Source: a virus. From it: a DNA stretch of 32,682 bases. Below are positions 13,489-25,232 of this stretch, piece by piece (position 1 is the first letter of the stretch; every line of letters starts with the position of its first letter). Position numbers and translations under genes: made by a program. A model generated the notes under the pieces. It was not told the origin of the DNA. It saw only the letters and a program-made list of their open reading frames with translations, and did no database searches. The stretch covers positions 1-32,682 of IMG/VR virus record IMGVR_UViG_3300035698_020314. One strand, written 5' to 3'.

Positions 13489-14883
13489 TTACATTTTAAT
13501 TTTTTCTTTTTCAGCCCAACTACCGTCCACTGGACATAACTCAGCATCTACATTTAAAGGAACGTTAATCCATTTCCAAGCTTGTTTTAAATCATTACAA
13601 GTTACGCAACGAATTACTTTTAAAATATGCTCTAATTCAGACGGGTGCACATCCAAAACAATAGCATCATGAATTTGCCCTATTATACGGGTTTTCCATT
13701 TCTCCCTTTTCATTATTTCAGTAAGTTCTATAAAAGACCATAAAAGACAATGAAACGCAGAACCCTGTACTGGATAATTAGTAACTTCATTGCACCTCAT
13801 TAAACCTTTACAAACAAATCCAGTCTTTAATGAAACATAGCCCTTTTTCTGGTAATCTTTCCAAGCCTTTTCTTTCCATTCTTTATATTTTGAAAAACGA
13901 TCTTCCCAAAAATGTTTTTCTATTTTCTGAATATGGTTTTCAAAAGCTTTATAAGATTCAATTCCATTTTTAATTAAGTGGTCTGAAATAGTTCCTTTAT
14001 CTAATTTAATTCCTTGACCTTTTTTCCATTTACCTTTAGAAAGCTTACACCAACCAACCGCCAAAGAATCTGCATTGTTTTTATAGTAGTCGCCATAGAA
14101 TTGAGGAAATACAAAACCGTTTTTAGCAGCTTTACGTAAAGTGGAATGGGCTTTAGAATCTTCATTAAATTTCTTTAACATGAATATTTCTTTAGCCATA
14201 TCAGCGTGCATATCAGAAGCAGGATTATTTAAGTATTCTAACATTACAGGGTCTTGGTGATAACAAGCTCCAATAGAAACTTCTAAACCGGAGTAATCAG
14301 CTTCCAATAATTGATGCCCCTTTCTTGGATAAATAGCTTTTCTACATATCTGTTGTGATTCAAAATCCCTATTTGGTATATTCTGAAAATTAGGATTAAA
14401 ACTTGATGAGCGATATGTTACCGGAAAAGCCAAACCAAAAGATGGATGGATATAACCCTCCACTGTTTCCCTCGCAAATCCTTCTAAAAAAGTATCACGA
14501 AGTTTTTTATATTTTTGAGCTTTTATTAGAATATTTAATTCAGGGATATTTAACAATTTCAAAGTCTCTTCACTAGTGCTACCCAAACCAGATTCAGTGA
14601 ATTTAGTTATGGGTATTTTTTTAACACCGTAAATAAAACCGCGCAATTGAGCATCTGAATATATATTTAAAGTTCCTTTACTGGTATGTTGCCAGTGTCT
14701 ATAAAATTTAGTTGTTTTAAACTCTTTTTCAAGTTTGTCTATTTTTATAGTTAACTCCTTTTGCGTTTTTTTAATATATTTCGTGTCTATTCTAAAGCCT
14801 TGTTTTTCTGCTAAATGTAAAGCTAAAGTTCCATCATGAAATAGTCGGTAAGCTTCTTTGGTAATTGGTAATGATTTACTCAT
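13489..14883 (-). CDS. Family A DNA polymerase, polymerase domain only
   Basis: With the ATG at 14883 the protein has 464 residues. Motif A is LLEADYSGLEVSIG (D196). Motif B is R250-KAA-K254 followed by FVFPQFYG, and motif C is QIHDAIVLDV (H405, D406). RSSSFNPNFQNIP precedes motif A as in other Pol I enzymes. It has no 3'-5' exonuclease; that domain is in the upstream gene, overlapping here by 8 bases (ATGAGTAA). The spacing in motif B seems one residue longer than in E. coli Pol I. TTG (14913) or ATG (14901) are alternative starts. Confidence 0.85.
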   Translation of the reverse strand: MSKSLPITKEAYRLFHDGTLALHLAEKQGFRIDTKYIKKTQKELTIKIDKLEKEFKTTKFYRHWQHTSKGTLNIYSDAQLRGFIYGVKKIPITKFTESGLGSTSEETLKLLNIPELNILIKAQKYKKLRDTFLEGFARETVEGYIHPSFGLAFPVTYRSSSFNPNFQNIPNRDFESQQICRKAIYPRKGHQLLEADYSGLEVSIGACYHQDPVMLEYLNNPASDMHADMAKEIFMLKKFNEDSKAHSTLRKAAKNGFVFPQFYGDYYKNNADSLAVGWCKLSKGKWKKGQGIKLDKGTISDHLIKNGIESYKAFENHIQKIEKHFWEDRFSKYKEWKEKAWKDYQKKGYVSLKTGFVCKGLMRCNEVTNYPVQGSAFHCLLWSFIELTEIMKREKWKTRIIGQIHDAIVLDVHPSELEHILKVIRCVTCNDLKQAWKWINVPLNVDAELCPVDGSWAEKEKIKM

Positions 14884-16102
14884 GATCTGGCACCTTTCCA
14901 TAAATTTGATCAATTTGCAATACTGCTAAACGATATTGGTTAATAGTATCTAAAGCACAATATCCCATCAGTTCTTTTTGTCCTCCCGGTTTTTTTAGAA
15001 GCTCTTTAATTTGATTAAAGGAATTAGCATTTTTACTATCTTTCCCTTTAGTTTCTAAATAAGGAGTGACTTCACTGGCATAATCTACCACCCCAAATAT
15101 TACGTATGTTTGAAACTTTAAACTAACAATTCCACTTCGATTATCAAGTATATGAGCACCCAACATACTATCCCATACCCAATTTGCTACGGAAGTGCCC
15201 AATATTTCTACACTCCACGTTTCTTCATACTTCATATTATGCGCCATCTTTTTGATTAATCTATTTTTCAATAAATTAATAAACGGTTTTCTTTTTTTCT
15301 TTTTCTCCGGCATCATAAAAACATACGCTTTGTTCTCACTAACAGCGACTGAAGTGCACACGATTTCATGTCCTTTCCGGTGGGGTTTTATTCCGGTTGT
15401 TTCGTAATCAATAGAAACTAAACTATTGGCTTTAAGCTTATCAAATATACTTAAATCCTTAATGTATTTTATTTTCGGCTTTGGATAAGTTAATAAAGGT
15501 TTTCCAATCAGCTTACTAATACGTTTTAAATCTTGAAACCAAATAGTATCAATTTCTTTTCCTTTATGAGCTTCTATTTTCTCTGGGTGATATACCGGAC
15601 AAACCCAAGCATTAAAATCCTGATCTGGTATTGTCCATCCCCTCCACTTTTCAATAGAACCCATATTTTTTTTCCATCTGGATGCTATAAGTGTATTCAA
15701 AGGAAACTCACCAAAGCTTATTATTATCTTTGGTTTGTTTTCCTTTATAATATCTAAGACCCTTTTACGACAGCAATTAATAGAATTAGCAGTAAGAGGT
15801 TTATCACCTCCGAAACAATTAACAGCGTTTATCCCCATACAATCCTCAAACAGGTTAATACCTACTTCAGACAACGCTTGTTCGATCATTTTCCCATACT
15901 TATCTTGAAAAGGTTTTCCCCGTGAATCATCTAAAGCTTCCGGGGCTTTTCCTATCACCAGAATCTTCTTTTTAAATTTACCAAAAGGGGGCAGCTTGGG
16001 ATGTTCCGCATTTTCATGTAAACCGCATGAAACGCATGACAAAAACTTTCCCCCTTTGAGTTGAGAAGATTCTTTTTGCTTATTACTAAAAAAGCCTCCC
16101 AT
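14876..16102 (-). CDS. UDG-like domain fused to DnaQ-like 3'-5' exonuclease
   Basis: This 408-residue protein has two domains. Residues about 15-200 resemble family-4 uracil-DNA glycosylase, including four candidate cluster cysteines (C23, C26, C96, C110 or C111) and ILVIGKAPEALDDSRGKPF. Residues about 210-408 are a Pol I-type exonuclease: SIDYETTG (D232, E234), AHNMKYE (N289, E293), and YCALD (Y381, D385). A UDG-exo-pol order is known in SPO1-type DNA polymerases, so this is the front half of such an enzyme. The UDG acidic motif is changed (GKAP rather than GEAPGEEED), so glycosylase activity is doubtful. The usual second exo Asp is Glu. Confidence 0.8.
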   Translation of the reverse strand: MGGFFSNKQKESSQLKGGKFLSCVSCGLHENAEHPKLPPFGKFKKKILVIGKAPEALDDSRGKPFQDKYGKMIEQALSEVGINLFEDCMGINAVNCFGGDKPLTANSINCCRKRVLDIIKENKPKIIISFGEFPLNTLIASRWKKNMGSIEKWRGWTIPDQDFNAWVCPVYHPEKIEAHKGKEIDTIWFQDLKRISKLIGKPLLTYPKPKIKYIKDLSIFDKLKANSLVSIDYETTGIKPHRKGHEIVCTSVAVSENKAYVFMMPEKKKKRKPFINLLKNRLIKKMAHNMKYEETWSVEILGTSVANWVWDSMLGAHILDNRSGIVSLKFQTYVIFGVVDYASEVTPYLETKGKDSKNANSFNQIKELLKKPGGQKELMGYCALDTINQYRLAVLQIDQIYGKVPDHE

Positions 16103-16105
16103 AGT

Positions 16106-17128
16106 CTATTCTTGTACGCTTAAAAGAACAGTTACATACTCCCAACCTTGTCCGTAAAACTTCAATTTGTTTTCGGTCATTATAGCTTCCGTAGCTTGTT
16201 TTAAGATCGTTTTTAATAGATACGGATAAATTGAGAAACGTAAACCTGCTGCTTTCTTCATATCACAATCAACCGCTTCTTTAAACCAACCTCCATTTTC
16301 TGCTTTGGCAGTTACTTTTAATTTTCCTTTTTCAAGTTGAATACTAATTTTCTCATTCAACAATCCCGGTCTTTTATAGAAAGGTTCAGCCCTTTCGATT
16401 ACGGATATTAAAGTGTCTGGAAAATTGATTTTAACACCCTCTGCTTTTAAATATTCATCAATAGGTGGGTATTTTTCAGACAGTACTCTACATGAAATAA
16501 TAGTATCGTTTGCGTTCTTAAAATGAACCCATCCATCCCCTTCACATATTTTAATTGGGTTTAAATTTAAAACTTGGTTAACTGAAGAAACCGGAATTAA
16601 AAAAGCAGGTATGCTGATTTTCTTTTCTAAAGTACACCGTGCAATTTGATAACTATCTGAACCCTCAACGTGGATGCCATCTACATTTACGCAATTTAAA
16701 ACATCAGCACTTTTGCTACCGTCACAAGCCCCCAAAGCTATCTTTAAATAATTTAGGAAATCTTCAGGTAATTTTTTCCATTTACCGACTTCCACTGAAG
16801 ATTCTTCAAGCGGCAATTTAATTTTAGAAGCTATTGGAAACCCGGCTTTTGCTCTCCCGGCTTTTATGTCCAATTCAGTTTTGGTTATTTCCATTTCAAC
16901 TTCCGCAACTTTCAACTTCTTTAGAAATTTATAGAAAGAATCAGAATCCACAGCCCCTTTAATTTGTAAATCTTTTACAGGATGAGTAATGCTAATTTCA
17001 TCGTTGTACGTAACTGCTTTATTATTCATAAAAGCAAACTGCGTAGATTGTTCAATACTTTCGTTTGTACCCAAGCCCGGTTTTACTATTTCCAGAGCTT
17101 CAATTAATGATTTAATTTTTACTTTCAT
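16106..17128 (-). CDS. dnaN: DnaN-like sliding clamp
   Basis: This 340-residue protein has the length and strand-helix repeats of a bacterial-type beta clamp. VEGSDSYQIARC (near 154-165) corresponds to the conserved TDGHRLA segment of DnaN, and SCRVLSEKYPPIDEYL corresponds to the LIEGRYPDY segment. The C-terminal part also fits clamp-like strands. It would tether the split polymerase to DNA. It lies three bases before the UDG-exonuclease gene and overlaps the previous gene by four bases. Confidence 0.8.
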   Translation of the reverse strand: MKVKIKSLIEALEIVKPGLGTNESIEQSTQFAFMNNKAVTYNDEISITHPVKDLQIKGAVDSDSFYKFLKKLKVAEVEMEITKTELDIKAGRAKAGFPIASKIKLPLEESSVEVGKWKKLPEDFLNYLKIALGACDGSKSADVLNCVNVDGIHVEGSDSYQIARCTLEKKISIPAFLIPVSSVNQVLNLNPIKICEGDGWVHFKNANDTIISCRVLSEKYPPIDEYLKAEGVKINFPDTLISVIERAEPFYKRPGLLNEKISIQLEKGKLKVTAKAENGGWFKEAVDCDMKKAAGLRFSIYPYLLKTILKQATEAIMTENKLKFYGQGWEYVTVLLSVQE

Positions 17129-17931
17129 AATTTTTCTTTTATCATTCCTGAATAAACTTTTCTTTTACTTACCGGGTTTAACTTATCTTTAAACCGTTCC
17201 AACCCGGCTAAACCTAAAGTGCCCCCGTCATTTACTAATTTCTTTTTGTCTTGAATTTCTGGATCAGTATAAAATAAATATCTCATGAACTCATCAAGGT
17301 ATGGTTCATTTTCACGCACAATAACAAATCGGTAGTTTATAAATTTCCAATTCTCATCGTAAACGTTTACAGCTTTTAATTGACCATCATGGTATAATCC
17401 TATAAAGGAGGCTTTGGAATCTTTATTCAAAGTCATATCAATTAAAACATCAGAACCTTGAAAATTTAATTCTTTACTTTCTAACCATTCCCCTATCAGA
17501 CAAGAAAGTTCTATGGTATCGTCAATTTCCCGATAGTGACACATTTCATGTGTTTTAGGGTACTTTCTTATGTTCTTTCTAAAGGTAGCCCATTGAGAGC
17601 CTGAAAGGTCATTAAAACGCTCCGGGTCATAAATGTATTCCCATTCCAAAAATTGCCAATCTATTTTATTATAAAAGCTAAGTAATAAATAATTATATTC
17701 AAATAAGTTACTCCAAATGTTTAGCGTATTTTTAGAGTCTGGGGCAGTTGAATACCTTTCTTTAATCGGGGGAAATAAACTCCAACCACTTTCAGTAACT
17801 TTCCACCAACCATCTTTTTCCCAACATTTTGCTTTCACAGCTTCTAAATAAGCTTCAGACATAAAAAAGTTTGGCGTAATCCCGGCTTTCTCAGCTACGG
17901 TCAAAAAATCCTGTATGCTTTTTCGATTCAT
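17125..17931 (-). CDS. DUF2156/LPG-synthase-C-like (GNAT-fold) protein
   Basis: This 268-residue protein matches the two signature regions I know from the DUF2156/COG4866 group. The first is a central YIYDPERFNDLSG followed by a basic FRKNIRKY patch. The second is a C-terminal VNDGGTLGLAGLERFK followed by NPVSKRKVYS. Members of this GNAT-fold group include the aminoacyl-tRNA-dependent lysylphosphatidylglycerol synthases, but most have no known substrate. No membrane segments are seen. It is coupled by four bases to the clamp gene and overlaps a microprotein gene upstream. The substrate is unknown. Confidence 0.55.
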   Translation of the reverse strand: MNRKSIQDFLTVAEKAGITPNFFMSEAYLEAVKAKCWEKDGWWKVTESGWSLFPPIKERYSTAPDSKNTLNIWSNLFEYNYLLLSFYNKIDWQFLEWEYIYDPERFNDLSGSQWATFRKNIRKYPKTHEMCHYREIDDTIELSCLIGEWLESKELNFQGSDVLIDMTLNKDSKASFIGLYHDGQLKAVNVYDENWKFINYRFVIVRENEPYLDEFMRYLFYTDPEIQDKKKLVNDGGTLGLAGLERFKDKLNPVSKRKVYSGMIKEKL

Positions 17932-18046
17932 CTTTATTTATTGAAGGTTTTCCACAATTTGATTTATTAACAACGTGAGTTCCTGCTTTTAAAGCTTGTA
18001 TGAGTTTCTTACTTACACCTCCTGATTTTCTACTTTTTCCGCCCAT
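17891..18046 (-). CDS. 51-residue basic microprotein
   Basis: Too short for usual gene calling. ATG at 18046 opens a 51-residue frame starting MGGKSRKSGGVSKKLIQAL and ending DRS with TGA at 17893-17891. It bridges the otherwise empty gap 17932-18029, overlapping the upstream gene by 17 bases and the downstream gene by 41. It is rich in Lys, Gly and Ser. No family is assigned; reality is supported by the tight packing of this operon. Confidence 0.5.
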   Translation of the reverse strand: MGGKSRKSGGVSKKLIQALKAGTHVVNKSNCGKPSINKDESKKHTGFFDRS

Positions 18047-18812
18047 GAGTTTTATCCCTTTTTGGTTTTTCGTTTCTTGTTGCGTTTCTTATTTCAATAA
18101 CCTCGTCATATAAACAACAAGCAATAACGCAAGACATATTACGTTTTTTCATATCTGTACTTTCAACCTTTATGAAGTCCTCTTTTTCTTTACTTGGGAA
18201 AAGAAAACGCAAAGAATCTTGAAATGAAAATAAAGCCCTAAAATCACCTGTTTTAATAGCTATTGGGCCAAAGTTTTGCATACTAATTTCATTTATTAAT
18301 CCTTTGTTCTTTTTCTGTACTTCAATAACTGTACCACTGTAAATGTTTCTTTGTATGATTTTAATTGGTTCTCCTTTTTTAGCGGAAAACTCAACGTGAC
18401 TTAAATCAGAATCTAATAATTCCAAAATGTTTTTATTAAGAATAGAAACAACTTGTTTTTTATTTACTGGTTCATTTTCAAACTCAAGATAAAGTTTCTC
18501 AACCTCCTCCGGGGTGATGTCTGTCACGGCACAAACCTTCTTACGTTCAAAGTCCTCTTTGGTGGTGGTAAAAATAATCTTGTTTCCTTTCTGTTCAAAT
18601 TCATTACTGTCATAATCATTTGCCTTAAATGAAATCGGAGTTTTAAAACGGGTTTCTGACTTGCGCAAAACGAATTTTAAGAATACAGTATGATCATAGT
18701 TTAAAATGTAAATATGATCATCAATTGCGTAGATGGTATTTTTTAACCCCCCACTTTGTTCTAAAGCCACCGCAGTAGCAAATAATTGTTCAACTAAATT
18801 AGTTATTTTCAT
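18030..18812 (-). CDS. Beta-rich protein of unknown function
   Basis: This 260-residue protein has many predicted strands (IYAIDDHIYILNYD, VFLKFVLRKS, ISFKAND, KIIFTTTKEDF). A helical middle precedes further strands and a basic C terminus (KPKRDKTHGRKK). The family is not recognised. The serial strand pattern recalls clamp-like or single-strand-binding folds, but no motif confirms it. It starts three bases after the stop of the small Cys-rich gene and overlaps the microprotein gene downstream. Confidence 0.55.
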   Translation of the reverse strand: MKITNLVEQLFATAVALEQSGGLKNTIYAIDDHIYILNYDHTVFLKFVLRKSETRFKTPISFKANDYDSNEFEQKGNKIIFTTTKEDFERKKVCAVTDITPEEVEKLYLEFENEPVNKKQVVSILNKNILELLDSDLSHVEFSAKKGEPIKIIQRNIYSGTVIEVQKKNKGLINEISMQNFGPIAIKTGDFRALFSFQDSLRFLFPSKEKEDFIKVESTDMKKRNMSCVIACCLYDEVIEIRNATRNEKPKRDKTHGRKK

Positions 18813-18815
18813 AAT

Positions 18816-19013
18816 CTATTTTTTAGATTTATTCGTATCAGTTTCATAAACCCAATTTGGGTTTTCTTTTAAAGAGACTGCGTCACATTCTACAACATTA
18901 TCACTACCTTTACCACTTCCCAATATAGTTACTTGGGTAGGACAATCAGCAATACAATATTTACAAATATCGCATAGGTTCTTTTCTAAATCGGTTGTTC
19001 TATATACTTTCAT
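18816..19013 (-). CDS. Small Cys-rich protein, ferredoxin-like or zinc-binding
   Basis: This 65-residue protein has C14, C17, C20, C24 and C43. LCDICKYCIADCP reads as CxxCxxCxxxCP, the consensus for one [4Fe-4S] cluster of bacterial ferredoxins. The rest of the sequence (LGSGKGSDNVVECD) instead recalls small zinc-binding proteins with a late conserved Cys. Its start overlaps the radical SAM stop by four bases, so the two are coupled. If it carries a cluster it could feed electrons to that enzyme. Both readings stay open. Confidence 0.55.
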   Translation of the reverse strand: MKVYRTTDLEKNLCDICKYCIADCPTQVTILGSGKGSDNVVECDAVSLKENPNWVYETDTNKSKK

Positions 19014-20413
19014 AATAAATTATTTACAAGATTTTCTCTGTAATCAGTATCTTCTTTTTTCCATAAAACACCATCTTCATCACGACCTGCCGAAACTAAA
19101 CCTGCAGCCCACTGGTGTCCATAAGCTATATTGCCTTCCAAGTTCCAAAGCTTCTTAACTTCTAACCTTAAAGTAGGGGTGAGGAAACCCCCGTGGTGGT
19201 CTACAAACTTCTCAAACATCGACCAACTCACCAACTTTCCTTTCTTGTCACAAATAAAACGAGCTGCCATTACAGTACACCCGTAGTTCCAACCCCCTTT
19301 AAAGTAATCAGCAACCTCACAACATATTGCTTGACTATTTGCCGGAGCGTTACCCATATCGAAAGTAGAACTTGAAAAACCAGCCTCTCTAAATAACTCC
19401 ATAAATTTTCCCAAAAGTAAAGAGCCCAAAGGTTGGCTGTCACAACCCACTAAAAACATACGGTCATAGTCATAACCCTCGTTAATAAAACTTTGACGTA
19501 TTCCACTATTTCCAGCAGTATATGAGTACGTGTCAAATGTAATGTTCCGTACTCCAACCGCTTTTAAATCTTCCATATAACGAGCCACATCATCTGGATC
19601 ATCAGTTATTAAAAATAAATATGGCTCAATTCTAGCAACTACTCTAATTCCAGCGTCAACCATTCTTTTAATAGCTTCTAATCGTTTTGTATAAGTGGGT
19701 GCGCCAGGTTCTAATTTCTTTAAAACAGTATCATTGCTGGAAATCAAAGTAACATGCACAGCTCCTCCGGCAGGGTTTTCAGATAACGCTCTCAAGTACG
19801 AATCCTCACCAACCAAAGCTGATTTGGTATTAATCATTACCGGATATTCAACCTCTTTTAAATACTGTAACATTGCTAAGCTTATGCCGTCCCGTTTTTC
19901 ATGTTTAAGAAAGTCCTCAAACCTTATGCCCATACGTACCGGAATTTCTAAACCATACGCTTTATTAATTCCTTGGAGTTCTCTTTTTCCATCTAAACTT
20001 AAAGCTCTAAATTTAGACATCTTGTCCATTTCCCGTTTATAGTAATCCGGATTACAGTGACGCAATCCCATCGTTTTACTATTATCGAAAAAGGCAGTGT
20101 AAAGACTTGCCCGGAAAGAATTAGCATAACAATAAATACAATTATAAGGACAGGTGAGCCCATCCCAAATATCCATATTAAAAGGCATAGGACACGCAGC
20201 AGCTCTGACCGATATTTCCAAAAAAGAATTAATTTCTTCAGTGTTCAATAAACGCTCCTGCTTTCTCCACTCCTTGTGTTTTAAATTGTATTGTTTGTAA
20301 TTCTTTTTGCGCCCCTTTTCCCGAACTAGTTCTGATTTCCTATTCGAAGGAAACAGCTGTGTCATTCGTGGAATGATCTTACTTGCTTTTTTTCTTAATT
20401 CCCAATAGTCCAT
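19010..20413 (-). CDS. Radical SAM protein, spore-photoproduct-lyase type
   Basis: This 467-residue protein has the radical SAM cluster motif CPYNCIYCY (C88, C92, C95). It continues with the COG1533/SplB pattern: a VHVTLISSND strand, LEPGAPTYTKRLEAIKRMV, then DAGIRVVARIEPYLFLITDD. Known members include SplB, which repairs thymine photodimers, and many uncharacterised enzymes. Extra Cys occur at the C terminus (ICCEV, YGCTV). It is the fourth of four adjacent redox or radical genes and overlaps the Cys-rich gene downstream. Substrate (DNA lesion, base or protein) cannot be read. Confidence 0.78.
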   Translation of the reverse strand: MDYWELRKKASKIIPRMTQLFPSNRKSELVREKGRKKNYKQYNLKHKEWRKQERLLNTEEINSFLEISVRAAACPMPFNMDIWDGLTCPYNCIYCYANSFRASLYTAFFDNSKTMGLRHCNPDYYKREMDKMSKFRALSLDGKRELQGINKAYGLEIPVRMGIRFEDFLKHEKRDGISLAMLQYLKEVEYPVMINTKSALVGEDSYLRALSENPAGGAVHVTLISSNDTVLKKLEPGAPTYTKRLEAIKRMVDAGIRVVARIEPYLFLITDDPDDVARYMEDLKAVGVRNITFDTYSYTAGNSGIRQSFINEGYDYDRMFLVGCDSQPLGSLLLGKFMELFREAGFSSSTFDMGNAPANSQAICCEVADYFKGGWNYGCTVMAARFICDKKGKLVSWSMFEKFVDHHGGFLTPTLRLEVKKLWNLEGNIAYGHQWAAGLVSAGRDEDGVLWKKEDTDYRENLVNNLL

Positions 20414-20414
20414 A

Positions 20415-21368
20415 TTATTTAATTATAAATAGAAATTTATTAGACCATGAATCTATTTCTTCAATATCGTTTTTACTCAAAAAAAGATTTACAGAATCAT
20501 AATTTATTTTAACATTATCTACATTGTTTGATTTTGGTATGGGTATAATTCCTTTACTAATTATCCAAGATAAAATTAATTGAGAAACTTCACAATTGTT
20601 TTTAGAAGATAAAGAATGTAAAAAAGAATTGCTGTCTAATAAAGTTAATGACTTTTTAAGATTTTGAGAAAAAGGACTGTAACCAATAATTTTTATTTTA
20701 TTTTTAATACAAAAGGGTATTAAATAATTTATTGAATCTTTTCTCCATAAAGAAAATGGAATTTGAATCGTTTCAATTTTAGAAGTAAGGGACAATGCTA
20801 ATTTTAAGTATTCCCCATTGCAATTACATAATCCTAAAGAATAGGGGGCTTTAAAAAAACCGGAATTTAACTTTACTACACTTTCAATAACTTTCAAAAA
20901 ATTAAAATTAATATTTGGCCAGTGTAATTGGTAATGTATTCTTTGGTTTTTAAATTTAATTAGCTCTCTGTTATACCCTTTCGAAATGTTTTGATTTGTC
21001 ATTAAATTTTTAGCAATCTTAGTAGCTACTAAAACACCTTCATAATTTGAAAGTAGTGATGAAAGTTCCTTTTCTACTTTTCCAAAACCATAAGTTGGTG
21101 ATGTATCAATAAATGAATAACCTAATTTTAATGCAGTCTTTATAATGGAGTGATCATATTTCCATCCATACGTGCCTATTCCAATTTTAATACTATCCCA
21201 ATTAACACTCTCTTTTTTACTTCCATCACATACATTGGTTTTGGGTTTTTCAATTAATATTTTTTTAAACTCCTTTAGCTTAACAATTGATAAAGTATCT
21301 ATTGCATCCCGAACTAAATGAGACCAAGCAACACCTTGTATATGATCTATTTTTTTAGAATTTTTCAT
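20415..21368 (-). CDS. Aldo/keto reductase family protein
   Basis: This 317-residue protein has the AKR barrel with a complete catalytic tetrad: D88 and Y93 in FIDTSPTYGFG, K117 in LVATKI, H149 in YQLHWPN. A C-terminal PIPKSNNVDNVK is the usual nicotinamide-cofactor region. The first 50 or so residues precede the barrel and match nothing I know. AKRs reduce carbonyls using NADPH; the substrate here is unknown. It overlaps the FAD gene by 14 bases and ends one base before the radical SAM start. An AKR is an unusual gene in a replication operon. Confidence 0.8.
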   Translation of the reverse strand: MKNSKKIDHIQGVAWSHLVRDAIDTLSIVKLKEFKKILIEKPKTNVCDGSKKESVNWDSIKIGIGTYGWKYDHSIIKTALKLGYSFIDTSPTYGFGKVEKELSSLLSNYEGVLVATKIAKNLMTNQNISKGYNRELIKFKNQRIHYQLHWPNINFNFLKVIESVVKLNSGFFKAPYSLGLCNCNGEYLKLALSLTSKIETIQIPFSLWRKDSINYLIPFCIKNKIKIIGYSPFSQNLKKSLTLLDSNSFLHSLSSKNNCEVSQLILSWIISKGIIPIPKSNNVDNVKINYDSVNLFLSKNDIEEIDSWSNKFLFIIK

Positions 21369-22296
21369 CTTTTATTATTTTATTGGCGGAAAATCCTGCT
21401 GATATTAATCCCATTTTTCCAGAGCCTACTGCCACCCAACATTTATCTTTTTTTAGTATTGCACAAGGTTTATGTTCTTTTATTCTAGTGAAACAACGCA
21501 AACCTCTAATTGTTCTTATTAATTTTAATTCATTTCCAATTTCACCCCTTATCCTTTTTAAACTTTCATCAATCCTACCTTCATACCAACTGGGTAAAGT
21601 TAATGCAGAACCATCACCACACCAAAGTATCTTTTCTTTTTCATAAAAACAATTGTGGACGGTTATTTGTTTATATGGTGCCCAAAATTTAACAAAAGGC
21701 TGATCGATCAAACCGTCAAAATGGAAAGAAAACCCCCGTTTTACAATTAAACCTAATGAGTCACAAACGGATGGTAATAATTTTAAACTATCAAAAGCCG
21801 CAGCAAGTACAATTATTTCTGCTACTATTTTTTTGTAAACACCTTTTTTGGTTTTATAAAAAACAATTCCATCTTTTTCATTTATAAAAACAACTTCACC
21901 ATAATTCTTTTTTATTCCAAAAATAGAATCCATATTAACACCATGAGTGTCTACTTTTACGAAATTGCCGGAAGGTCTTAAAATTATCTTTTCTTCATGC
22001 GTACCAAAAGTTGAATCTATAAGAGTCAATACCTCTTTAAATTGGTATTTGTCTAAAGATGTAAATCTTGAAGGCTTTATTAAACCACCACAGGGTCTAC
22101 TCCCTGAATCTTTGCTTTCATTATCCAATACAAAAACATCCTTTCCCCTATTTCTTAATGATTGAGCAATAGTAGCTCCCATAATTCCTGAACCTATAAC
22201 AACTATTTGTTTTTTAATTGTTTCTGAACTTTTAGAAGCAAAAAAGGTTTCTTTGTTTTTCCTTCTTTCTATTTTATAATCAAATAATTTATTCAT
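21355..22296 (-). CDS. FAD-dependent oxidoreductase, DAO (ThiO-like) family
   Basis: This 313-residue protein has a Rossmann dinucleotide motif VVIGSGIMGATIAQSL (GSGIMG 35-40) with the acidic strand end VFVLDNE. A C-terminal FAD-contact segment WVAVGSGKMGLISAGFSANKII is present, as in amine/amino-acid oxidases of the DAO family. About 30 extra residues precede the Rossmann fold. It probably oxidises an amine or amino-acid-like substrate, not specified. It overlaps both neighbours (4 bases upstream, 14 downstream), so it belongs to a coupled set with the AKR and radical SAM genes. Confidence 0.75.
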   Translation of the reverse strand: MNKLFDYKIERRKNKETFFASKSSETIKKQIVVIGSGIMGATIAQSLRNRGKDVFVLDNESKDSGSRPCGGLIKPSRFTSLDKYQFKEVLTLIDSTFGTHEEKIILRPSGNFVKVDTHGVNMDSIFGIKKNYGEVVFINEKDGIVFYKTKKGVYKKIVAEIIVLAAAFDSLKLLPSVCDSLGLIVKRGFSFHFDGLIDQPFVKFWAPYKQITVHNCFYEKEKILWCGDGSALTLPSWYEGRIDESLKRIRGEIGNELKLIRTIRGLRCFTRIKEHKPCAILKKDKCWVAVGSGKMGLISAGFSANKIIKDEKF

Positions 22297-23348
22297 AATC
22301 CTGTATCTTTTAAAGTGTAAAAATCACATTTTTCACCTCTCACTATTTGACAACCTTGTTCGTAGTTTCCTGTGCCATCATTACATAGTTGTAAGATTGT
22401 TTCGGGACTTTTACCCAGTTGAGCATATTTCTTAAAGTAATGACTATTAAAGGTACAAGGGTTTGGGACGTCAATACCACAACAAGTATTCGCTTTCTCC
22501 AACCAATCTTTTCCGCTATTTACGAAATCTGGGCAACCTAATAGAATACCATGTTTTTTTGATAAGTTCAATAACTGTTGTAAAATAGGTTTCCAATGTT
22601 TGTCTTGGTTATAATACCATATTTGTTCAATATCTACTCCCGGCAGATTTACCATTCTTTTAGCTACAAAAGCATTAAAATGAAAATTATATGTATTATA
22701 ACTTTTGATCTTAAATTCTTTTAAGAGTTTCAAAGTATTTTCGAAATCTTCAACTTTATGAAATCCCGGAATAAAGGGCTCACCATTAACTCCTCCGGGC
22801 ACTCCTTTTTTTAATAGCTTTTTAAGGTGTTTTAAGCGTTTTAAAGGGTTTGTAGTTAGCTTATGTTCAAATGTCTCCCAATCCTTCTCTAATCCGGGGG
22901 AAACAATAGGCATTACGGTTATTAGTTTCTTTTCATTACATTCCATTATCTGATCTACATAATCTAACATAACATGAGTGAATTTTGTTTGGATTACAAA
23001 AGACCAATCGTGTTTAATAAATAATGGAAATATTTGTTCTGCTATTTTATGCTTTCTTTCTGCTAATTGAAAGGGGTCTGTTTTATTGCCCCACCTGATT
23101 GTTTTCTTTTGACTTAATGCGTGAGCTAAAGTAGTTTTTGGATTTGTATTCTTTAAACCGTTTGTTAGCTTCTTATCTAATAAAGTAACATCCGTTGGTT
23201 TTAAATCTTTACCCCATGTATGATTTAAATGACGAAAATAACAATGAATACAATCGGTCATACAGTTTCCGTAACTATCTAATGAAAGGGAAAGGGGGCA
23301 ATATAGACTGTCCCCTCTCATAGTTAAACTATTTTTTAAAAAATTCAT
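22293..23348 (-). CDS. Radical SAM protein, second SPL-like
   Basis: This 351-residue protein has the cluster motif CMTDCIHCY (C29, C33, C36) and a radical SAM barrel pattern (KTIRWGNKTDPF, VIQTKFTHVMLDY, ITVMPIVSPGLEKDWE). The early part looks like COG1533 enzymes. The C-terminal third is Cys-rich (TCCGID, PCTF, GCQIVRGEKCDF), which could hold an auxiliary cluster. It is the first gene of the coupled block, overlapping the FAD gene by 4 bases. Substrate unknown. Confidence 0.75.
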   Translation of the reverse strand: MNFLKNSLTMRGDSLYCPLSLSLDSYGNCMTDCIHCYFRHLNHTWGKDLKPTDVTLLDKKLTNGLKNTNPKTTLAHALSQKKTIRWGNKTDPFQLAERKHKIAEQIFPLFIKHDWSFVIQTKFTHVMLDYVDQIMECNEKKLITVMPIVSPGLEKDWETFEHKLTTNPLKRLKHLKKLLKKGVPGGVNGEPFIPGFHKVEDFENTLKLLKEFKIKSYNTYNFHFNAFVAKRMVNLPGVDIEQIWYYNQDKHWKPILQQLLNLSKKHGILLGCPDFVNSGKDWLEKANTCCGIDVPNPCTFNSHYFKKYAQLGKSPETILQLCNDGTGNYEQGCQIVRGEKCDFYTLKDTGL

Positions 23349-23349
23349 T

Positions 23350-24141
23350 TTAGTTCAAAATTCCAATAGCTTCAAACACTTGTTTAACCCTTCTGTATTC
23401 TGCTTTTTGTTCTCCAAAATTCAAATCTTTACCTTCATGTTCAGAATAAAGCTTATCTGCTTCTTTTACCAAATCCTCCATACTACCTTCCAAATTCTTA
23501 TGAAATACTTGAGCCATAACCGTTATTCGACTGATCCGTTTTTTATTTTTGTCTTTTTTCGGAGCAGCTTTCTTTTCAGCCTTTTCACGGGCTTTCTTTT
23601 CCTTTTTGGTTTCCACTACCGGAGGAGCGGCAGCAGCTTCAGTTTTTTCACGGGCTTTCTTTTCCTTTTTAGTTTCTTCTGGAACAGGAGCGTCATCTGC
23701 CTCAAGATATTCGCGCATCGCTTTTTTCAAGGAAAGGTGATTGTCAATTTTGGCAAGTTTTTTTCGACCTTCATTAAATACCGGGTTTTCCAACATTTCC
23801 AAAATTTCAGTCTTTTTCTTCATAGGCTTCAAAACATCAACCATTTCAGCTGGGCTTAAATCAGCTTCAGCAGCGGGTTCTTCTTTTTTACCTTTACCCT
23901 TTTTTTCTTTTTTCTTTTCCACTTTAGCTTCAGCAGCAGCTTCTTCAACTTCTGCTTTCAAAGCGTCAATTACTTTCTGGGTAGCAGGTGTCCACTCATC
24001 CGTATCTTCTAATTGAGGGATGGCATCAATTACGAACGTTCTATATTGCTCGTCAGTAAAATCTTTACCCAATTGAGATGTTTCGAACATTTCTTTGTCT
24101 AGTTCGACAGCTGCTTTTTTAATTTGCTTTTCTGTTGCCAT
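23350..24141 (-). CDS. Lys/Glu/Ala-rich protein with C-terminal helical domain
   Basis: This 263-residue protein has an N-terminal helical part, a highly charged low-complexity middle, and a helical C-terminal domain (about 203-263, ISRITVMAQVFHKNLEG onward). In the middle ETKKEKKAREK occurs twice, at 156-166 and 177-187, 21 residues apart. The Lys/Ala-rich tracts resemble histone-tail or linker segments, so DNA or RNA binding is possible but unproven. It is the first gene after a long intergenic region with a terminator, so it probably starts a transcript. Confidence 0.6.
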   Translation of the reverse strand: MATEKQIKKAAVELDKEMFETSQLGKDFTDEQYRTFVIDAIPQLEDTDEWTPATQKVIDALKAEVEEAAAEAKVEKKKEKKGKGKKEEPAAEADLSPAEMVDVLKPMKKKTEILEMLENPVFNEGRKKLAKIDNHLSLKKAMREYLEADDAPVPEETKKEKKAREKTEAAAAPPVVETKKEKKAREKAEKKAAPKKDKNKKRISRITVMAQVFHKNLEGSMEDLVKEADKLYSEHEGKDLNFGEQKAEYRRVKQVFEAIGILN

Positions 24142-24524: not shown

Positions 24525-25232
24525 TTAAAACGTATAGTTATAAGGGAAAAAAGAAGCTAACTGGACGTTTTTATCTAAACATAATTTAGTTAACTTTATT
24601 AATTCGTTTGGTTGATTTTGATCTTTTCTGATTGTATAAAATAATTGGATTTGATCTATTTCCAATAAATCCTTTTTCAAGTAGTCCCGACTTATTTCTT
24701 CCCATTGCTCCTCCGGGTTCTCAAGAACAAAATAGAAATTAACGTTATTATAAGCTGCTAACTTTTTAATGAAAACCGGAATGCATCGTTTTGGATTAAC
24801 ATGATTTGATGAACTTAGCTCTAAATAGATATGCCATTTTTTAACAATCGCATTAAAATGATATTTGATTATGTTTTCCAAATTACTTGATACTTCAATA
24901 TTCAACCTAAACCCAAAACGCTTAAAGAATAAATCTCCAAAACGAATTAAAGAAAGCTGATACAATAAAGGCTTACCACTTATACAAAAAGGTTGTGTTT
25001 CTAATTTAGATACTAAACCCGGTTGACTTGATATTAAATCTAATATTTCAATATAGGAATAAGGGTTTGAATCTTCATTACTTAATTCTAACACTATACA
25101 TGGTTTTCTTGCCACAGTTAAACAATTAATATCAAAAGATACCACGTTTAAATAATCGCTTAAAAAAACACCTTCTAAACGATTTACTTTCCGGGGATGA
25201 AATTCAATTAAATTCTTGTGTAATGTTTCCAT
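24525..25232 (-). CDS. QueE-like radical-SAM-fold protein lacking cluster motif
   Basis: This 235-residue protein can be aligned by eye with 7-carboxy-7-deazaguanine synthase (QueE). LEGVFLSDYLNVVSFDINC resembles the GEGPFLGRPAIFVRLSGC start. CISGKPLLYQ resembles TGGEPLLQ, and GFRLNIEVSSN resembles the ETNG strand. The CxxxCxxC motif is absent; only C37 and C45 (eight residues apart) remain, and GGE is SGK. It is therefore either a non-radical derivative of the fold or a chance likeness. It lies downstream of DnaB and before a terminator. No other queuosine-type gene is in this window. Confidence 0.4.
   Translation of the reverse strand: METLHKNLIEFHPRKVNRLEGVFLSDYLNVVSFDINCLTVARKPCIVLELSNEDSNPYSYIEILDLISSQPGLVSKLETQPFCISGKPLLYQLSLIRFGDLFFKRFGFRLNIEVSSNLENIIKYHFNAIVKKWHIYLELSSSNHVNPKRCIPVFIKKLAAYNNVNFYFVLENPEEQWEEISRDYLKKDLLEIDQIQLFYTIRKDQNQPNELIKLTKLCLDKNVQLASFFPYNYTF

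Follow-up and report, generated by a model that had tools for sequence, protein, structure and literature searches.

What is the function of the group of redox-enzyme genes carried by an uncultivated virus, the IMG/VR record IMGVR_UViG_3300035698_020314? The window analyzed here is the whole record, positions 1 to 32,682 (32,682 bases). A sequence-only reading of it had pointed to five genes at 18816-23348 as a coupled block of two radical S-adenosylmethionine (SAM) enzymes, an FAD-dependent oxidoreductase, an aldo/keto reductase (AKR) and a Cys-rich protein, and had named DNA modification as one hypothesis among several. We think that these genes, except the one for the Cys-rich protein, belong to a cassette for the hypermodification of phage DNA bases by a variant pathway with a radical SAM core, and we give this explanation a probability of about 0.72. 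The target base is probably thymine, judging from the relatives of the enzymes. Hypermodification is now clearly the best supported of the hypotheses, because the flavin enzyme of the window is homologous to PaMx11_47 (PDB 8z2o) and because its place is taken in other phages by a pyridoxal phosphate (PLP) enzyme like gp52 of M6. The explanation is based on these homologies, the fixed order of the genes, the exchange of enzymes within one slot, the exclusivity of the genomic contexts and the absence of the canonical genes.

Relatives were gathered by single-sequence searches and by a search with an alignment of one of the radical SAM enzymes (rSAM-B, 19010-20413, 467 aa), which yielded 74 viral loci; the comparison set consisted of 77 loci. 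The slot lies between the other radical SAM enzyme (rSAM-A, 22293-23348, 351 aa) and rSAM-B, and in the window it contains two exchangeable tailoring enzymes, the flavin enzyme (21355-22296, 313 aa) and the AKR (20415-21368, 317 aa). All window genes described below between 13489 and 24141 lie, like these, on the minus strand.

As had been read from the sequence, the flavin enzyme is a member of the DAO family (Pfam E 6.7e-9) with a Rossmann motif. Its residues 28-309 matched PDB entries 8z2o and 8z79, both of which are named 'Flavin-dependent lyase', with an E value of 2e-23, and the sequence of 8z2o as aligned is that of PaMx11_47. The homology extends over the whole fold, and the motifs GxGxxG, WAPYxQ, GxGSA, KPC and ISAG are shared with the PaMx11-type lyase. 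Weak matches of the MnmC/ThiO type were also obtained. The AKR matched PF00248 with an E value of 3e-28, and the complete D-Y-K-H tetrad noted earlier was invariant in 12 distinct copies. It was found in 15 loci, always adjoining either a protein of family f15 (11 loci) or the flavin enzyme (4 loci, the window included). No Pfam match was obtained for f15, which by eye only has the look of a Rossmann methyltransferase. In 33 loci the slot is occupied by the PLP enzyme (family f12), a homologue of M6 gp52 that aligns with it at 33-37% identity along almost its entire length (lowest E value 7.7e-52). When the contents of the slot were placed on the rSAM-B tree, the state of the PLP gene changed at least 21 times and that of the AKR 9 times. 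That is, the cassette is a stable core with fast-turning accessories. By count, the PLP enzyme and the AKR are nearly exclusive, with one locus carrying both, but this was not significant on independent pairs of the tree, and we do not claim it.

The contexts of the slot enzymes outside the cassette were also compared. The flavin enzyme occurred in 15 viral-contig loci, three of which were relatives of the cassette, and all of the others (12/12) carried canonical hypermodification genes. Among 80 loci with the PLP enzyme, 52 had canonical genes only, 19 the radical SAM cassette only, one both and eight neither; outside the cassette, 52 of 60 PLP loci thus adjoin canonical thymidine-hypermodification genes. 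In the single locus with both sets, the canonical part was a short piece of thymidylate synthase. Nearly every canonical locus with the PLP enzyme also had the M6-type radical SAM enzyme, which was absent from the cassette loci.

Over the 77 loci, the genes follow the order helicase, Lys-rich protein (family f9), rSAM-A, slot, rSAM-B, a 260-aa protein (P260), transferase, a putative sliding clamp (CLAMP), a uracil-DNA glycosylase (UDG)-exonuclease and PolA, and a 51-aa gene with a GGKSRK motif sits between P260 and the transferase. P260 was present in 74 loci, the transferase in 70, rSAM-A in 69 and CLAMP in 66; the count for rSAM-A, taken at a BLAST threshold, may include second rSAM-B-like genes where a DUF362 protein (f18) replaces rSAM-A. 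All 11 large contigs (11/11) carried the radical SAM pair, P260 and the transferase together with primase, clamp, clamp loader and RecA. The sequence-only reading had proposed that the same gene order be sought in other phages, and that separate occurrence of the genes would speak against it. The order of the radical SAM core was indeed kept, with the two radical SAM genes as a fixed part, but the flavin enzyme and the AKR proved to vary and to be exchangeable, and the Cys-rich gene was absent. Relatives of the cassette were found mainly among viral contigs: a search of a genome collection gave two loci only, both on metagenome-assembled contigs, and in named phage records rSAM-A remained without a match, and rSAM-B was matched only twice, in both cases weakly and partially. 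A single-sequence search of viral contigs with the AKR returned no relatives, its patterns being too specific.

With regard to the layout, the five open reading frames (ORFs) are present on the minus strand with the spacing that had been described (overlaps of 4, 14 and 4 bases and one gap of 1 base). We rejected this close spacing as a sign of coupling. It carries little information because 41 of the 45 neighboring gaps in the surrounding array are of 15 bp or less. The block is a slice with arbitrary boundaries from a co-directional 29-kb array of replication genes, and the conserved unit extends beyond it, through 17125-18812 and into the genes for the clamp, the UDG-exonuclease and the polymerase. 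The earlier list of parts had thus overlooked two proteins, the clamp-like P260 and the one of 51 aa, and had not recognized which fold the transferase has. Conversely, it had counted as a member the small Cys-rich ORF (18816-19013, 65 aa, CxxCxxCxxxCP), a ferredoxin-like protein whose similarity to the Fer4 family of Pfam is weak and below the cut-off. This ORF was absent from all 76 other loci, and we rejected it as a component of the system.

The two radical SAM enzymes both possess a CxxxCxxC motif, and its cysteines (C88, C92 and C95 of rSAM-B; C29, C33 and C36 of rSAM-A) were invariant in the aligned relatives. The Radical_SAM family of Pfam (PF04055) was matched by rSAM-B with an E value of 1.2e-8 and weakly by rSAM-A (0.013). 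The two are homologous to each other (hhalign, 95%), and rSAM-A also gave a profile match to gp53, the radical SAM enzyme of M6 (hhalign probability 94%, E 1.3e-7). They had been called similar to spore photoproduct lyase (SPL), which holds at the level of the SplB superfamily, but among the named families PA0069/Rv2578c, and not SPL, come closest (rSAM-A to PA0069, E 2e-16). Although these families and the 'radical SAM mobile pair' gave the best named matches of both enzymes, the scores were far under the curated cut-offs, and their function is not transferable. About 14 loci have an insertion in rSAM-B that lies at, or close to, the first (C88) or the third (C95) cysteine of the cluster motif, for example at L047:14262-16660, at L022:15458-18076 and from L079:8373 onward. 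The insertions contained Hint/intein-splicing domains in 3 of 3 tested, and intein-bearing radical SAM members are known in the Rv2578c family as well.

In known thymidine hypermodification, the first step provides a hydroxymethyl group, which comes from a relative of thymidylate synthase or from an oxygen-dependent TET/JBP enzyme. The sequence-only reading had seen no dUMP hydroxymethylase or base kinase in the window, which was borne out, and had suggested a check of the rest of the genome for thymidylate-type enzymes. We ran this check on the relatives. The thymidylate-synthase family (PF00303) was found in 0 of 15 and then in 3 of 40 records of cassette phages, only one of the three being full length. 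The helical domain of the 5-hydroxymethyl-deoxyuridine (5-hmdU) kinase (PF18723) was found in 0 of 40 records, in a search that leaves P-loop-only kinases aside. The amino acid:DNA transferase (ADDT; PF18724) was found in 0 of 41 records and in 3 of 3 control phages, and TET/JBP (PF12851) in 0 of 33, by a Pfam model that does detect the TET/JBP protein of the record L156 described below at the protein level. Two relatives, G024 (73.8 kb, PLP type) and G020 (75.0 kb, f15 and AKR type), have exactly the same sequence at both ends (123 and 114 bases, respectively), which suggests that they are complete genomes; both lack all four of the genes. We therefore consider that the absence of the canonical genes is not just a matter of incomplete contigs, since nearly all relatives and two terminally redundant genomes lack them, and fragmentation as its cause is weakened.

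Thus, of the components of the canonical 5-hmdU system, the tailoring enzyme (flavin lyase or PLP enzyme) is present, whereas the dUMP hydroxymethylase or TET/JBP hydroxylase (apart from the three records with a thymidylate-synthase match), the kinase and ADDT were not found. We do not count the cassette among the canonical thymidine hypermodification systems, because its finishing steps are alike but the enzymes of the defining first steps were not found.

Comparison with individual systems illustrates this. The 5-(2-aminoethyl)-dU pathway of M6 and Yuavirus resembles the cassette in its PLP enzyme (gp52), in a radical SAM enzyme of the same superfamily (gp53) and in its location near replication genes. 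However, M6 has a dUMP hydroxymethylase, a 5-hmdU kinase, ADDT and one radical SAM enzyme, whereas the cassette phages have instead two radical SAM enzymes, P260, the 51-aa protein and a transferase of MprF/FemX fold. In the Yuavirus group, roughly 30% of the thymidines are 5-(2-aminoethyl)-dU (5-NedU) (PMC11946847). The flavin-dependent lyase pathway of PaMx11 and Abidjanvirus (8z2o, 8z79) is alike in the full-length homology and common motifs of the flavin enzyme, but the PaMx11_47 cluster contains ADDT, an acetyltransferase, a kinase and a thymidylate-synthase homologue, and no AKR, rSAM-A or rSAM-B was found beside the flavin lyase. The CmoA-CmoX-CmoY system for 5-carboxymethylcytosine is a phage route in which an amino acid is added to a DNA base with no hydroxymethylated base at the start (PMC12783734). 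It differs from the cassette in that it uses other enzymes and another base and has no radical SAM enzyme.

L156, a viral record of 136.9 kb with relatives of CLAMP, the UDG-exonuclease and PolA, bridges the two kinds. Just upstream of its clamp, this record carries a SPASM-type radical SAM enzyme, a flavin enzyme, ADDT (E 8e-9), TET/JBP (2.5e-22) and a P-loop kinase; it has neither rSAM-B nor P260. L156 is like the cassette phages in these replication proteins and in having modification genes at the same place, and unlike them in its TET/JBP oxygenase route and its SPASM-type radical SAM enzyme. From this arrangement we consider that the place adjacent to the replisome is occupied by a canonical system in some phages and by the radical SAM cassette in others.

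The predicted structure of P260 (18030-18812), a core gene, had a pLDDT of 88.8, and Foldseek matched it to PCNA and Rad9-Rad1-Hus1 (E about 1e-7, TM about 0.5-0.6). The AlphaFold2 model agrees with a two-domain clamp fold of the PCNA/9-1-1 type. The transferase (17125-17931, 268 aa), also a core gene, was predicted with a pLDDT of 92.4 as a double-GNAT fold, and its Foldseek matches were 2hqy, the C-terminal domain of MprF/L-PGS, FemX, Sbb17 and aminoacyl-tRNA-dependent peptide synthases. The core 51-aa gene (17891-18046) was represented in the loci by 58 different sequences with the head motif, in which MGGKSRKSGGVSKxLI is almost invariant. Its tail is charged, variable and of low complexity, without recurring core residues, and often ends near LFD, LLD or GFF; by eye only, these ends are reminiscent of clamp-binding peptides.

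We propose the following scheme, in which we infer DNA as the substrate, the order of the steps, the chemistry and product, the tethering and the aminoacyl donor. P260 would hold the enzymes on newly made DNA, and rSAM-B and rSAM-A would make the base reactive and attach to it a side group resembling an amino acid. That is, the pair would substitute for dUMP hydroxymethylase or TET/JBP, for the 5-hmdU kinase and for ADDT. Trimming of the side group by the slot enzymes would follow: those of the window may oxidize it (flavin enzyme) and reduce the resulting carbonyl (AKR), and in the PLP-type relatives the M6 gp52-like enzyme would do the trimming. Finally, the transferase may add an acyl or aminoacyl cap. 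The products predicted in this way are a hydroxyl after the flavin enzyme and the AKR versus an amine in the PLP-type phages. We also consider it possible, at odds clearly below even, that the pathway needs no hydroxymethylated base, no kinase and no ADDT: radical SAM chemistry would start directly on the base in DNA, at the fork and on a PCNA-like clamp of its own, and the last enzyme would be a transferase that depends on aminoacyl-tRNA and thereby passes amino acids from tRNA to DNA.

Several observations weigh against hypermodification by this route. The identity of the flavin enzyme with PaMx11_47 is low, about 27%, and canonical flavin clusters were found to contain neither an M6-type radical SAM enzyme nor an AKR; because of this, the intermediate that the flavin enzyme acts on here may differ from that of the canonical clusters. 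A sequence search found no relatives of known structure for rSAM-A or rSAM-B. The terminal-repeat phages without canonical genes are not of the flavin type, and a strongly diverged hydroxylase or transferase could escape the searches for these genes. Lastly, some replisome relatives have no radical SAM core: L299, a close one, shows a third state of the place next to the replisome, in which the stretch from an f9-like protein to CLAMP encodes a PLP enzyme together with two DNA methylases of the N6/N4 type (L299:2512-5427), without rSAM-A, rSAM-B, P260 or the transferase.

Other functions were weighed against the same evidence. The enzymes might serve in DNA repair, with SplB-like radical SAM enzymes reversing thymine photoproducts at the fork on a 9-1-1-like clamp. 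The membership of the pair in the SplB-type superfamily, the matches of P260 to Rad9-Rad1-Hus1 and the nearby genes for UDG, RecA and nuclease-like (SbcCD-like) proteins are in accord with this, but repair has no need for a flavin lyase, a PLP enzyme, an AKR or a transferase, the slot enzymes elsewhere mostly adjoin hypermodification genes, and L156 carries a hypermodification set at the same place. We regard repair as improbable. It is quite improbable, too, that the substrate of the radical SAM core is adenine, guanine, cytosine or tRNA and that the slot enzymes were co-opted. This would fit with the lack of canonical thymidine genes beside the core, with the weak MnmC/ThiO-type matches of the flavin enzyme and with a QueD-family gene nearby in one relative (G014), whereas the closest known relatives of both slot enzymes belong to thymidine hypermodification clusters and L156 has the TET/JBP type at the same place. 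A peptide or cofactor pathway, in which the radical SAM, flavin, AKR and transferase enzymes would modify the 51-aa protein as a precursor resembling those of ribosomally synthesized and post-translationally modified peptides, is very unlikely, for although this small gene has a conserved head and variable tail and the transferase shares the fold of aminoacyl-tRNA-dependent enzymes, the tail is charged, of low complexity and without recurring core residues, and the homologues of the slot enzymes sit in DNA hypermodification clusters.

If hypermodification of DNA bases is the function, a large uncultivated phage group (77 loci) keeps the finishing enzymes of a known type of pathway, and its start has apparently been replaced by two radical SAM enzymes among the replication genes. 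This would provide an oxygen-independent way to functionalize DNA bases and would assign functions to two radical SAM families that are conserved as a pair. From the exchange of enzymes in the slot, several new nucleosides would be predicted, and it would be suggested that DNA modification can possess its own sliding clamp.

The replisome genes downstream of the cassette are CLAMP (16106-17128, 340 aa), which had no match in Pfam and is a sliding clamp by eye, the fusion of UDG with a PolA-type 3'-5' exonuclease (14876-16102; PF03167, E 2e-13; PF01612, E 1.3e-5) and a family A DNA polymerase (13489-14913; PF00476, E 2e-44). The UDG domain is joined to the exonuclease in most cassette phages; in L082:14314-17799, and likewise in other phages, it lies by eye at the C-terminus of a PolIII-alpha-like polymerase. 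Upstream, the slot region is bordered by a Lys/Ala/Glu-rich protein (23350-24141) just before rSAM-A. BLAST did not join it to family f9, which is found at this position in 45 loci. Lys/Ala-rich proteins directly upstream of modification genes were also seen in M6 (gp49, L048:7439-8122) and in PaMx11 (PaMx11_45).

In L100, L101, L102, L104, L108 and L109, the region upstream of P260 is enlarged to an island that encodes a DUF362 protein, further radical SAM-like enzymes, an epimerase-like protein whose gene contains an insert, and numerous small proteins; homing-endonuclease-like ORFs appear common there. The QueD-family gene of G014, for a 6-pyruvoyl-tetrahydropterin synthase, is located just upstream of rSAM-A (L024:3501-3851) and is possibly a trace of a 7-deazaguanine pathway. 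In the window itself, an ORF of 235 aa between the helicase and the Lys-rich gene (24525-25232) had no match in Pfam, PHROG or NCBIfam and no counterpart in the relatives, and the ORF cut by the contig end (32317-32682) contains pentapeptide-type repeats.

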